A model generated the notes under the pieces. The model did no database searches. It was given only the letters and a program-made list of their open reading frames with translations, and was not told where the DNA came from. The translations under genes were made by a program, and so were the position numbers. A stretch of DNA of 64,000 nt from Leptolyngbyaceae cyanobacterium (lineage in GTDB: Bacteria > Cyanobacteriota > Cyanobacteriia > Cyanobacteriales > Aerosakkonemataceae): assembly GCA_036703985.1 (NCBI GenBank), contig DATNQN010000053.1, forward strand, positions 1-64,000, written 5' to 3'. Positions 861-19,313 of the stretch are shown here, one piece after another (position 1 is the stretch's first letter; each line of letters begins with the position of its first letter).

Positions 861-879
861 ATAGAAACCGGGTTTCTAT
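861..879. repeat. Short palindrome, single arm of the AGAAACC..GGTTTCT family
   Basis: Perfect inverted repeat ATAGAAACC-g-GGTTTCTAT just after the first gene, between convergent genes. It equals one arm (AGAAACCGGGTTTCT) of the 33-nt element seen complete at 5027-5059. It could stop transcription weakly, but no T-run follows. Confidence 0.7.
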
Positions 880-3237: not shown

Positions 3238-3262
3238 GGTTGGTAGTTAAGGGATTTTTTTT

Positions 3263-3292
3263 ACCACAGATGAACACAGATGAACACAGATG
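3263..3292. repeat. CACAGATGAA direct repeat
   Basis: Three tandem 10-nt units of the type CACAGATGAA. The same element occurs at about 47020-47044 and, inverted, at 57078-57117, so it is an interspersed repeat. Confidence 0.8.
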
Positions 3293-3330
3293 TAGGCTAA
3301 GCCTTCTGGCAGTAGGTAGATGTCAAGTAG

Positions 3331-5026: not shown

Positions 5027-5059
5027 AGAAACCCGGTTTCTCCGAGAAACCGGGTTTCT
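5027..5059. repeat. 33-nt palindromic element, 15-3-15, subtype A
   Basis: Arm AGAAACCCGGTTTCT (5027-5041), loop ccg, arm AGAAACCGGGTTTCT (5045-5059): a perfect 15-bp stem. It has the same geometry as elements at 12048-12080, 57166-57198 and, inside a coding sequence, 18039-18071. Confidence 0.9.
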
Positions 5060-11889: not shown

Positions 11890-12047
11890 CGGTCACTGCA
11901 AGGATAGCGCCAACCAACCTTAATCCTAGACTAGGGAGGGAGAGAGGGCAATTGGTACGCGATCGTTTTTTGTGATTTGAGCTTGTTGAGTAGCTCAAAA
12001 TCCGCAATTTGAGGTTGTTTTGTATCTAAAAGCACTATATCTCAGGT

Positions 12048-12080
12048 AGATCCCCAACTTCTCTAAGAAGTCGGGGATCT
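12048..12080. repeat. 33-nt palindromic element, 15-3-15, subtype B
   Basis: Arm AGATCCCCAACTTCT (12048-12062), loop cta, arm AGAAGTCGGGGATCT (12066-12080); 14 of 15 Watson-Crick pairs, the last position being A opposite C. Same geometry as the elements at 5027, 18039 and 57166. Confidence 0.9.
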
Positions 12081-12126
12081 GTATATCTCAATAGTCTGTG
12101 TAAGCGAAGTTTATTTGTTATTTTAT

Positions 12127-14019: not shown

Positions 14020-14236
14020 TATTAGGTAATTGAGATGATTTTGGAGGTTATTGTTATTATATGATAAAGTTAAACATGGATGAATTAATGATTGTAAAAT
14101 TGGTTGATATGGTTATAATTAATTATTGCATTTTAATAATTAATTAATAATAGCAATACTTTGTCCTTAACCTAGCGATCGCGCAGTTGCGATCGGCCCG
14201 ATTGTTTATATAGATTTTGCATCAGTCGCATCAACC

Positions 14237-14285
14237 GCCTGCGATTCAAATCGCAGGCTAATAGCGAAAGTCCTCTGAAGAGGAC
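14237..14285 (+). repeat. Two-hairpin repeat element, copy 1
   Basis: Hairpin 1: GCCTGCGATT/AATCGCAGGC (10 bp, 2-nt loop). Spacer TAATAGCGAAA. Hairpin 2: GTCCTC/GAGGAC (loop TGAA). Same architecture as the inverted copy at 14444-14493, with different but still complementary stems. Confidence 0.85.
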
Positions 14286-14311
14286 TGTTTATAAGAGCGA
14301 AACTTTTGTAG

Positions 14312-14377
14312 GGGCGAAGCATTCGGGCGACAATCTTTGTAGCTTCACCAAAATTGAACAATCCGAATGCTTCGCCC
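14312..14377. repeat. 15-bp perfect inverted repeat
   Basis: GGGCGAAGCATTCGG (14312-14326) and its exact complement CCGAATGCTTCGCCC (14363-14377), 36 nt apart, lying between the two two-hairpin elements. Confidence 0.85.
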
Positions 14378-14443
14378 TTCCTCCATCTGCAAATAATTTT
14401 GCTTAAAGGACGATAGAAAAACCCGGTTTCTTTGCTTTTCTTC

Positions 14444-14493
14444 AGTCGTCTTTAGACGACTTTAGCTATTAGCCTGGGAATTGATTCCCAGGC
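14444..14493 (-). repeat. Two-hairpin repeat element, copy 2 (inverted)
   Basis: On the minus strand: hairpin GCCTGGGAAT/ATTCCCAGGC, spacer TAATAGCTAA, hairpin AGTCGTC/GACGACT. The spacer matches copy 1 almost exactly, while the stems differ by paired changes. Confidence 0.85.
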
Positions 14494-14542
14494 GGGCTGT
14501 GTTCACAAACGAGTGATGTATTCCCAGGCGTTTTACACAGCT

Positions 14543-15956: not shown

Positions 15957-18900
15957 ATGGGATTGATTCGTTGGTTGGGAAATTTAGAGATACTGTTACC
16001 GCAGGTAATCAGGAAAATAATATCAGTGGTAAAGCTAAACAACTACGCTCTTGAACTTCATAGTCAGGGTAAATTTGATGAGGCGGTAACTTTGGCTGAG
16101 CAAGCTTTAGATTTAGCTCTGTCACTTTCTTTAGGCGATAATCGCGTTGTTGCTATCAGTTTGAACAGTTTGGCATTTCTTTACTGCTCCCAAGGCAGAT
16201 ACAGTGAAGCGGAACCATTGTACCAACAAGCACTGGCGATGACACAGCGCCTATTTCGGGGCAATCATCGTCTTGTTGCTATTAGTTTGAATAATTTGGG
16301 GTTACTTTACCAATCCCAAGGAAAATACAGCGAAGCCGAACCTCTATACCAACAAGCACTGATGATGTGGCAACGCTTGTTTAAGGCCGATCATCGTGAT
16401 GTGGCACTCATTTTGAACAATTTAGCAGCAGTTTACAATTCCCAAGGCAGATACAGTGAAGCGGAACCTCTGTACCAACAAGCACTGGCGATGAGACAGC
16501 GCCTCTTTAACGGCAATCATCCCGATTTGGCACAAAGTTTGAACAATTTGGCATTCCTTTACAACTCCCAAGGCAGATACAGTGAAGCGGAACCATTGTA
16601 CCAACAAGCACTGGCGATGAGACAGCGCCTCTTTAACGGCGATCATCCCGATTTGCCAGTCAGTTTGAACAATTTGGCAGGACTTTACAAATCCCAAGGC
16701 AAATACAGTGAAGCGGAACCTCTGTACCAACAAGCACTAACGATGAGACAGCGCCTCTTTAACGGCGATCATCCCGATGTGGCAGAAATTTTGAACAATT
16801 TAGCCGAACTTTACCGATCCCAAGGCAGATACAGTGAAGCGGAATCTTTGTTCCAACAAGCACTGGTGATGACACTGTATTTATTTAAGGGGGATCATCC
16901 CTCTGTGGCAAAAAGTTTGAACAATTTGGCATTAATTTACAACTCCCGCAGATACAGTGAAGCGGAACCTTTGTTCCAACAAGCGCTGGCGATGACACAG
17001 CGCCTATTTAACGGCGATCATTCCGATGTGGCAACAAGTTTGAACAATTTGGCATCTCTTTACTGTTACCAAGGTAGATACAGTGAAGCCGAACCCCTCT
17101 ACCAACAAGGACTGGCGATGTTTCAACGCCTATTTGAGGGCGATCATCCCGATGTGGCACGCAGTTTGAGCAATTTGACAGGTTTATTAGCAGCTACCGA
17201 TCGCCCTACCCAAGCACTAGAACTAATGCAGCAAGCAGCAGCAATGGAAGGGCGACTCATTCGCCGCCAGTTTGCTTACAGTTCCGAACGCGATCGCCTC
17301 ACCTATCTCGATACCATCAGAAGTACATTAGCAAGTTTACTCTCCCTCGTCTGGCACTACTTTTCCGACTCCCCAGAAGCAGTGCAAATTGCCCTCGATG
17401 TAGTGCTGCAACGCAAGTCCCTCAGCGCTTCTGCCCTTGCTGCTTTCAACTTTGCTTTATTTAGCGGACGCTATCCCCACTTGCAAGAAGAATTTACTCA
17501 ACTGCGCCGCCTCCAAGCAGAACTCGTTCATCTTACCTTCGATCCACCCCTCCCCGATCCAAAAGTTTCCGTAGAAACATACCAATCTCTGCGAAAAGCG
17601 CATCAAAAAAAGCTTGCCGAATTAGAAGCACAATGCCAACAATTAGAAAAGCAACTCGCATCCCAAGTCCCGGAAATTCAACTGCAAGAACAAGAATGCG
17701 ATCGTCGCGCCGTCGCTTTGGAATTGCCATCAGGTTCTACTTTAGTGGAATTTGTTCGCTTTAATCTATTTGATTTTACCGCCCCAGAAAAAACGCGATG
17801 GCAATCTGCCCAATATGTAGCGTTTATCTTACCTGCCCAACAACCAGATGCGGTGCAGATGATTAAATTAGGAGAAGCAGAACCTATTGATAAGTTAATT
17901 CGAGTTTTTCGAGAAGCATCTGCAAAACCTGGTAACAAGCTAGGCGCGAGAAAAAAACCGCAAACTCCCGATGCAGATAACGTCACTGTTGGGGAAAAAC
18001 TGCGTCAACAAATATTCGATCCGATTTTGGTTGGGTTAAGAAACCCGGTTTTTCTAAAAAACCAGGTTTCTAAAGAACATTTCTTCATTGCACCCGATGG
18101 CGACTTAAACCTGCTGCCGTTTCAGATATTACCGATGCCAGAAACGGACAAGTTGCTGATGGATGAATACACTATTAGTTATCTCAGTGTCGGGCGAGAT
18201 ATCCTGCGGCAAAAAGTAGCGACAAACCGCCCTGTATCCGATGCTTTGATTATCGCCGATCCTGATTTTAATTTATCCGTTAGTAGTGAGAACTTCAGTC
18301 CTCAAAGCGCTAAAGCGCTTACTACAAACTTATCAGCTTTAAGTTCTAGTTTTCACCCCGTACCCGAAACAGGTTTTTTAGGCAAAAGAGTTGCCGAAAA
18401 ACTCGGCGTTAAACCCTATCTGCAACAGGAAGCTTTAGAACCTATTCTCACTAGCAGTAAATGTCCCCGCTTGTTGATGATTGCTACTCACGGTTACTTT
18501 GCCGAAGAAAATCAACCAGCTTATCTTAATTTAATCGCTCAACTCCTCAACTGTGCCAACGGTGAAGAACGAGAAATCTTACAAAAACACCCTCAATTGC
18601 TAGATGAAAAATTGCCGGAAATGATGGCAGATGTCGCCACTTATCTAGCTGCTAACGATGACGAAAATAGCGCCAATAGGTTACGCAATTTAGCCAGCCA
18701 ATTACCGGAAATCATCAAGAAAATAAACCCGCATAATTCAGAAACACATCGCCTTACCAACACCCAAATCGAAAACCCGATGATGCGTTCAGGACTTGCC
18801 TTTGCGGGTGCGGAAACTTGGCTAAAAGGTGGCGAACTTCCGCCAAAAGCAGGCAAAGGTTTTCTGTTCGCCCAAGATATCATCGGTATCGATTTATGGG

Positions 18901-19313
18901 ATAATGAAATTGCGATTTTAGTTGCCTGCGAAACTGCGATCGGTGATATCAAAAATGGTGAAGGCGTATTCGGTTTACGTCGCGCTTTTGCCGTCGCCGG
19001 AGCGAAAACTTTGGTAATGAGTTTGTGGTCAGTTCCTACCAAAGCAACCGTCCTCCTGATGGAGCGATTTTTCGATAATTTGCAGGGCGGTTTAAGACGG
19101 GTTGATGCGTTACAAGAAGCGCAAAATTATATTCGCGGAATTACGATCGAAGAATTGCAACAATTTCCTCTCGGTCGTGAGGTAATCGATGAACTTTTGA
19201 CATTAAAAATATTATCAGAAAGTAGGCTATCTTGTCAAGAGTTTAGACCGATCGAGCATCAATTTTTCTGGGGTGCTTGGGTATGTCAGGGAGAGACAAC
19301 AGAATTGAAATGA
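15957..19313 (+). CDS. TPR repeat CHAT-domain protease
   Basis: 1118-aa protein of the CHAT family (caspase HetF-associated with TPRs). After an N-terminal degenerate unit come eight near-identical 42-residue kinesin-light-chain-type TPRs (about residues 64-398, consensus SLNNLAxLYxSQGRYSEAEP) and one decayed unit. A helical linker (about 440-600) follows, then the C-terminal CHAT domain (about 690-1110). The catalytic His845 (ATHGYF) and Cys991 (ACETA) are both present, so it should be an active cysteine peptidase. TPR 7 lacks one codon. An 11-codon block, residues 695-705, is exactly a dispersed 33-nt palindrome. CHAT proteins act in HetF-like development, in Craspase, and in conflict systems; the partner here is unknown, with the DUF4384-like gene upstream a candidate. 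Confidence 0.9.
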   Translation: MGLIRWLGNLEILLPQVIRKIISVVKLNNYALELHSQGKFDEAVTLAEQALDLALSLSLGDNRVVAISLNSLAFLYCSQGRYSEAEPLYQQALAMTQRLFRGNHRLVAISLNNLGLLYQSQGKYSEAEPLYQQALMMWQRLFKADHRDVALILNNLAAVYNSQGRYSEAEPLYQQALAMRQRLFNGNHPDLAQSLNNLAFLYNSQGRYSEAEPLYQQALAMRQRLFNGDHPDLPVSLNNLAGLYKSQGKYSEAEPLYQQALTMRQRLFNGDHPDVAEILNNLAELYRSQGRYSEAESLFQQALVMTLYLFKGDHPSVAKSLNNLALIYNSRRYSEAEPLFQQALAMTQRLFNGDHSDVATSLNNLASLYCYQGRYSEAEPLYQQGLAMFQRLFEGDHPDVARSLSNLTGLLAATDRPTQALELMQQAAAMEGRLIRRQFAYSSERDRLTYLDTIRSTLASLLSLVWHYFSDSPEAVQIALDVVLQRKSLSASALAAFNFALFSGRYPHLQEEFTQLRRLQAELVHLTFDPPLPDPKVSVETYQSLRKAHQKKLAELEAQCQQLEKQLASQVPEIQLQEQECDRRAVALELPSGSTLVEFVRFNLFDFTAPEKTRWQSAQYVAFILPAQQPDAVQMIKLGEAEPIDKLIRVFREASAKPGNKLGARKKPQTPDADNVTVGEKLRQQIFDPILVGLRNPVFLKNQVSKEHFFIAPDGDLNLLPFQILPMPETDKLLMDEYTISYLSVGRDILRQKVATNRPVSDALIIADPDFNLSVSSENFSPQSAKALTTNLSALSSSFHPVPETGFLGKRVAEKLGVKPYLQQEALEPILTSSKCPRLLMIATHGYFAEENQPAYLNLIAQLLNCANGEEREILQKHPQLLDEKLPEMMADVATYLAANDDENSANRLRNLASQLPEIIKKINPHNSETHRLTNTQIENPMMRSGLAFAGAETWLKGGELPPKAGKGFLFAQDIIGIDLWDNEIAILVACETAIGDIKNGEGVFGLRRAFAVAGAKTLVMSLWSVPTKATVLLMERFFDNLQGGLRRVDALQEAQNYIRGITIEELQQFPLGREVIDELLTLKILSESRLSCQEFRPIEHQFFWGAWVCQGETTELK
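16147..17150 (+). repeat. 126-bp tandem repeats encoding TPRs
   Basis: Eight tandem 126-bp units (one of 123 bp) within the CHAT gene. Units 3-5 are nearly identical in DNA (shared runs around the codons for YSEAEPLYQQALAMRQRLFN), which suggests recent duplication or gene conversion. Confidence 0.85.
18039..18071. repeat. 33-nt palindromic element inside the CHAT gene
   Basis: Arm AGAAACCCGGTTTTT (18039-18053), loop cta, arm AAAAACCAGGTTTCT (18057-18071), 14 of 15 pairs. It begins on a codon boundary (residue 695) and codes RNPVFLKNQVS without a stop. It is subtype A, otherwise intergenic (5027-5059). Confidence 0.9.

Follow-up and report, generated by a model that had tools for sequence, protein, structure and literature searches.

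How does a palindrome that lies between genes elsewhere in the same DNA come to be read as a run of whole codons inside a TPR-CHAT gene? The question is raised by a 33-nt element at 18039..18071 (+ strand; AGAAACCCGGTTTTTCTAAAAAACCAGGTTTCT) of the window, the whole stretch of 64,000 nt from a Leptolyngbyaceae cyanobacterium analyzed here. The gene occupies 15957..19313 (+ strand), and (18039-15957)/3 is exactly 694, so the first base of the element opens codon 695. The coordinates and the open reading frame bear out the description in the first-pass annotation of an element that sits on a codon boundary, spans residues 695-705, fills 11 codons (RNPVFLKNQVS), and contains no stop. The intergenic copy named by the same annotation at 5027..5059 (+ strand) is also real and has 28 of 33 bases in common with the gene copy.

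The element consists of two 15-nt palindromes in tandem, separated by 3 nt. In the gene copy, the first self-complementary unit lies at 18039..18053, the spacer CTA at 18054..18056, and the second unit at 18057..18071 (all + strand), where, judging from both the sequence and the fold, the A at 18064 prevents one of the 15 pairs from forming. Stem pairing is 14/15 in the gene copy vs 15/15 in the perfect 15-bp stem of the copy at 5027..5059, and RNA folding gave -14.0 kcal/mol (z -4.7) and -22.9 kcal/mol (z -5.3), respectively. The consensus half, AGAAACC C/G GGTTTCT, is self-complementary about one central base, and the gene copy has one mismatch to the family consensus, AGAAACC(C/G)GGTTT(C/T)T NNN A(A/G)AAACC(C/G)GGTTTCT. 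The 15-nt unit is also found solo, at 863..877 (AGAAACCGGGTTTCT) and, with one mismatch, at 14417..14431 (AAAAACCCGGTTTCT), on the + strand and between called genes in both cases.

The gene encodes a protein of 1118 aa with TPR families and a PF12770 CHAT match of 162.1 bits, which covers residues 678-1112 (17988..19292, + strand). The His codon of ATHG (18489..18491, + strand) and the Cys codon of ACETA (18927..18929, + strand) are invariant in eight aligned sequences, and we take these two residues to be catalytic; the product is a CHAT protein by its Pfam CHAT domain, His, and Cys. The first-pass annotation had set the element between the linker and a conserved region of the CHAT domain; by the Pfam match, it lies inside the domain, near its start.

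A search of 60 genomes yielded 30 CHAT loci including that of the window, and four of the other 29 were dropped as having no match to the region. Among the 26 aligned rows, 24 had no element, the exceptions being the protein of the window and that of G004, its closest ortholog. At the same point, the G004 gene carries a full copy, 15 nt, and another full copy (81 nt, 27 codons), in frame, within an open frame of 1286 codons. The segment measures 12 residues in 21 of the element-free homologs, 11 in two, and 10 in one, vs 21 residues in the protein of the window and 37 in G004. This alignment did not show the gap of exactly 11 residues that had been expected in relatives: compared with the 12 residues that 21 of the 24 homologs have here, the net gain is 9 residues. 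Additionally, seven named relatives (Oscillatoria, Microcoleus, Planktothricoides, Planktothrix, and an uncultured cyanobacterium), some of which may duplicate genomes of the main homolog set, had neither an insert nor a pattern match in their loci. The dN/dS ratio between the genome of the window (G000) and G004 was 0.228 over 591 codons of the C-terminal part, indicating that the CHAT gene is constrained and that both versions look functional. The 24 of 26 rows without the element, the two copies in G004, and the dN/dS of 0.23 uphold the earlier proposal that a dispersed palindrome invaded the CHAT gene and was tolerated. Judged from sequence comparison, the CHAT element is an acquired insertion, gained at this site, and most simply it would have entered in the common ancestor of G000 and G004. 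An AlphaFold2 model (603 residues, eight sequences) had a mean pLDDT of 46 and gave no support for the surface loop suggested in the first-pass annotation. As separate observations, the G004 doublet (L239:14167-14247) can fold as one 81-nt hairpin of -49 kcal/mol through which the ribosome would have to read, and the CHAT homolog of G008 (L021) is split into two open frames about 350 nt apart, at another point of the protein.

The search for further in-frame copies that the first-pass annotation had advised was productive, and such copies were identified in a BchH/ChlH-family gene, the CbiJ gene of G007, and two genes of G003. The copy at C25:103608 lies inside a gene matching BchH (TIGR02025, 1027 bits, cut-off 829) and is read in a phase other than that of the CHAT copy, giving ETRFLGETGFL. 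At this BchH/ChlH site (L128:3608-3640, orthologs L132-L137), the 13 sequences include a full element in G000, G004, and G007, the G007 copy having matching changes at both ends; one 15-nt unit in G009 and G003; what we read as a decayed unit in G002; and no unit in the remaining seven. The comparison was made as DNA in 9 of the 13, and the absence in G008, G001, G005, and G017 was judged from protein. The G007 genome has a full in-frame copy (L237:2466-2498) in the gene for cobalt-precorrin-6A reductase (CbiJ, PF02571, 243 bits), and its eight well-matching relatives are shorter by 8 residues in five cases and by 7, 10, and 10 in the other three. Two more full in-frame copies were found in G003, in genes for an NB-ARC-type protein and for a TPR protein with a P-loop-like motif. 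Among the copies of G003, G004, and G007 in long open frames, those at the very start of a frame (L240:1988 and L237:2275), in a doubtful frame (L241:235), just before a transposase start (L236:2107), or in the L233 array beside a transposase gene were not counted as insertions. The CHAT, BchH/ChlH-family, and CbiJ genes offer comparisons across relatives in which a working gene has the mobile palindrome once, twice, in half, in decayed form, or not at all.

All full in-gene copies are 33 nt long, so any phase keeps the frame. When 101 copies were read on both strands, one phase had no stop in 200 of the 202 readings and the other two had none in 156 and 108, and every copy had at least three of its six frames open. 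The CHAT copy is read in the phase that is least often open.

The element need not have arrived as a clean 33-nt unit. Matching bases may have pre-existed at the target, with about 27 nt (CHAT) or 24 nt (CbiJ) added, or 33 nt may have come in and 6-9 nt been lost. The net gain of 9 residues in CHAT and of 8 in five of the eight CbiJ comparisons (7, 10, and 10 in the others) would agree with either course. However, segment length varies anyway among the element-free CHAT homologs (10-12 residues), and no empty site close enough to distinguish the two versions was found; we place an arrival of either kind, other than a clean 33-nt one, at slightly less than even odds.

The high-copy family, the in-frame gain at the CHAT site, the constraint on the gene, the related in-gene copies in other enzymes, and the length changes at orthologous sites are established. 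Our preferred reading, to which we give a probability of roughly 0.7, is that the element is a REP-like mobile palindrome, an untagged and non-autonomous variant, which has been tolerated in frame in the CHAT gene.

A degenerate pattern of the element had 155 matches in the 7.68-Mb G000 genome vs none for a reversed control. Across 2.33 Mb of this genome, including the window, 101 copies were found at up to 6 mismatches and 92 at up to 3, and the best match of the reversed consensus in the same 2.33 Mb had 8 mismatches. This sample was not random, as the first 1.14 Mb was picked around listed copies and the later contigs for length; it consists of selected stretches, and therefore copy density is not readable from it. 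Exact solo 15-nt units in the 1.14 Mb were all outside called genes (11/11). The pattern was present in 25 of 100 genomes, that of the window included. Nine of the ten genomes of the same family had it, with 49-172 matches in eight (172 in G007) and 5 in G006, and the 16 pattern-bearing genomes from other families of the order had up to 61 matches each. A plasmid search returned two weak partial matches only, and a search of G000 with a 27-residue peptide gave 36 weak matches, the CHAT site not among them. A text search of the literature with the 15-mer retrieved no paper, which is weak evidence of novelty because sequences are seldom searchable in text.

The copies lie mostly outside genes. 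Genes were called with a home-made caller based on codon usage, which scored 75% of the 2.33 Mb as coding and starts the CHAT gene at 16026 instead of 15957. Two of the 92 closer copies were inside called genes, one crossed a gene edge, and 89 were outside (p ~6e-52 against 75% coding); among the 101 copies, 98 were outside. A called gene on either side could be assigned to 89 of the 101 copies; of these, 38 were between convergent genes vs 14.9 expected by length (p 8e-9), 14 between divergent genes vs 27.4, and 37 between co-directional genes vs 46.7. The median distance was 43 nt from gene 3' ends vs 193 nt from 5' ends. In addition, pairing-preserving changes on both arms occurred in 24 cells among 43 distinct sequences, vs a shuffle mean of 7.2 and a maximum of 14.

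These positions would suit a bidirectional transcription terminator or a hairpin at mRNA 3' ends, which would spread by recombination and be kept by selection, the gene copy being a stray. The strong stems, the excess of copies between convergent genes and near stop codons, and the compensatory changes in both arms all speak for such a function. However, hairpin-templated correction could also give the changes in both arms, and a terminator role alone leaves unexplained the near-identical sequence in unrelated flanks, the several gene invasions, and the flanking of a transposase gene described below. We regard this explanation as rather unlikely.

A candidate enzyme for moving the palindrome, a REP-associated tyrosine transposase (RAYT), was found in G004. 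The gene (L236:2162-2728) matched NF047646 (REP_Tyr_transpos, REP-associated tyrosine transposases) with 83.7 bits (cut-off 80) and PF01797 with 41.9 bits, and its 189-aa product resembles TnpA-REP of PDB 4er8 (E 1.7e-5). The product has HUH and Y---NP motifs, as NHYH and YIHLNP, and also FQ. The gene is flanked by the element, with two copies preceding it, at 2004 and 2107, and three following it, at 2751, 2865, and 2992. The gene lies within an element cluster, L236:1986-3024, part of whose downstream portion is a repeated longer segment. A 90% identical gene of G003, likewise inside an element cluster (L233:3764-4926), has six copies before and one after it. For the genes of G042 and G082, of another family and 63-64% identical, the match positions listed also put copies to either side, no more than about 120 nt away.

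The survey of such transposases covered 20 loci with E <= 1e-45 in 16 of 100 genomes. Four loci were flanked on both sides (G003, G004, G042, and G082), 14 were without flanking copies, and the two of G045 were left out. Seven of the unflanked loci were judged from match positions (G067 twice, G010, G041, G018 twice, and G098), those of G067 among the matches listed, which cover that region, and the other seven are in pattern-free genomes. The loci of G065, G023, and G099 are fragments or contain stops. Such a transposase occurred in 6 of 13 genomes with at least 10 copies vs 10 of 87 others (Fisher p 0.006, a value that takes no account of kinship and uses two thresholds, 10 copies and E 1e-45, set with the data already in view).

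No close copy of the transposase was found in G000, where the best match had 32% identity (E 1.2e-8), nor in the copy-rich G001, G005, G007, G008, G009, and G064. All cut-out loci (about 3 kb each) of the five Y1_Tnp matches of G000 lacked the core motif, and a link between the Y1 transposases of this genome and the element was rejected, the two on examined contigs having their nearest copies 27 and 28 kb away. The simplest reading would be that the lineage of the window lost the transposase and kept the repeats. The enzyme whose gene is flanked by the palindrome in some relatives probably copies the palindrome.

Target-site duplications were not found at the 92 copies: flanking direct repeats numbered 11 vs 7.6 shuffled at k=2, 2 vs 1.2 at k=3, 3 vs 0.8 at k=4, and 0 at k=5 to 8. 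This result fits IS200/IS605-type chemistry. A clean empty site for the copy at 5027 was likewise not found, its flanking segments being about 3.3 kb apart in G004. As to how the palindrome may have spread, a REP-associated tyrosine (HUH/Y1) transposase, flanked by it in four relatives and presumably lost in the lineage of the window, would cleave and join the single-stranded hairpin. Most insertions into genes would be purged. A few may survive because a length of 33 nt is divisible by three, because each copy has some stop-free frames, and because the target is a length-variable turn or linker; a surviving element would then add a short peptide without abolishing the protein.

The element shares several properties with REPs. 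It is a short, high-copy palindrome (33 nt vs the 20-40 bp of REPs, with 155 matches in its own genome); it is mostly extragenic, near gene 3' ends and between convergent genes, and sometimes inside genes; and it is single or grouped, at times nested in longer repeats. REPs located within genes, embedded in longer palindromes, or lying between genes in convergent or co-directional arrangement have already been described (PMC3733652). In-frame REP insertions are also on record within tnpA-REP genes of subclass 2.4 (PMC6006769), so a phenomenon of this kind is already known. The element differs from the GTAG and CGTC super-families of REPs in having neither tag beside the stem, each occurring once among 184 8-nt flanks, and is therefore not filed as a canonical REP. 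It also differs in that each half is itself self-complementary. The arrangement of REPtrons, in which a RAYT gene is flanked by the repeat, is seen in G003, G004, G042, and G082, but G000 has no close RAYT and 14 other loci are unflanked. REPINs are described as hairpins formed by a pair of inverted REPs (PMC6006769, PMC3116915). The element likewise has two palindromic units per hairpin as well as solo units, and one long hairpin is possible in the G004 doublet; it differs in that its units are 3 nt apart and 33 nt in all, and as they are self-complementary, inverted and direct orientation are indistinguishable.

By sequence features, two apparent differences from described REPs are the missing tag and transposase motifs of the TnpAY1 subclass 2.1 type. 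As described, this subclass has the motifs NH[YF]H, FQ, and Y[IV]HLNP, a C-terminal extension, and a listed length of 238, and neither automatic nor manual search found REPs for it (PMC6006769). The motifs of the G004 transposase (189 vs 238 aa) match those of this subclass by eye, which makes it a putative member by motif. The same source reports atypical structures that lack the tag in subclass 2.6 and class 3 (PMC6006769), and thus an untagged repeat would not be without precedent. The tie between an untagged palindrome and a RAYT-type gene matters in that the nearest described group is reported to be without REPs (PMC6006769), and it makes the substrate question for such transposases directly testable. 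We tentatively propose, with somewhat more doubt than confidence, that a RAYT-like transposase with the motifs of this REP-less subclass may have a REP after all, a doubly palindromic element of 33 nt with neither tag nor GTAG guide, and that this REP would lengthen and shorten enzyme loops in whole codons (15- and 33-nt units). Across several families within a cyanobacterial order, it would thereby repeatedly give rise to in-frame changes in proteins. If this is true, searches demanding a GTAG tag would miss elements of the untagged, doubly palindromic kind.

The first-pass annotation had likened the insertion to Rickettsia palindromic elements, which are about 150 bp long and lie in ORFs in nearly half of cases according to one report (PMC10969869). 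As regards the effect on the protein the likeness is good, since both insert in frame into unrelated genes; it is weaker as regards the family, as the present element is far shorter, nearly always intergenic (2/92 in genes), hosted by an unrelated organism, and next to a REP-type transposase in four relatives. An element of that class, specialized for life inside genes, would explain the in-frame copies in unrelated proteins, but is disfavored by the length of 33 nt vs ~150 bp (PMC10969869) and by the location counts, with 98 of 101 copies outside called genes; we consider it very improbable. The border of the class is not sharp, as the rickettsial RPE-4 and RPE-6 have been equated with CGTC REPs in another study (PMC3733652). 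A merely accidental resemblance between the palindrome and the codons of an ordinary protein loop has a negligible probability and was refuted by the 155 vs 0 matches of the pattern control, the single mismatch of the gene copy to the consensus, the two copies in the G004 ortholog, and a reversed consensus with at least 8 mismatches everywhere in the 2.33 Mb.

The element also differs from MITEs: target-site duplications, a criterion for MITEs, were absent from the 92 copies. Small dispersed repeats of cyanobacteria, reportedly treated by Elhai in 2008, may be among the closest known systems by class. Several intergenic copies sit within two longer repeat families, one with the ends TACAGC and GCTGTA, and the other having CCAAATTGATTT ahead of the element and CCCCTCAAAACTACTTTGGCGG behind it. 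Additionally, the window contains other short dispersed repeats at 14211-14500, 3238-3305, and 12037-12093, which match many scattered places in G004.
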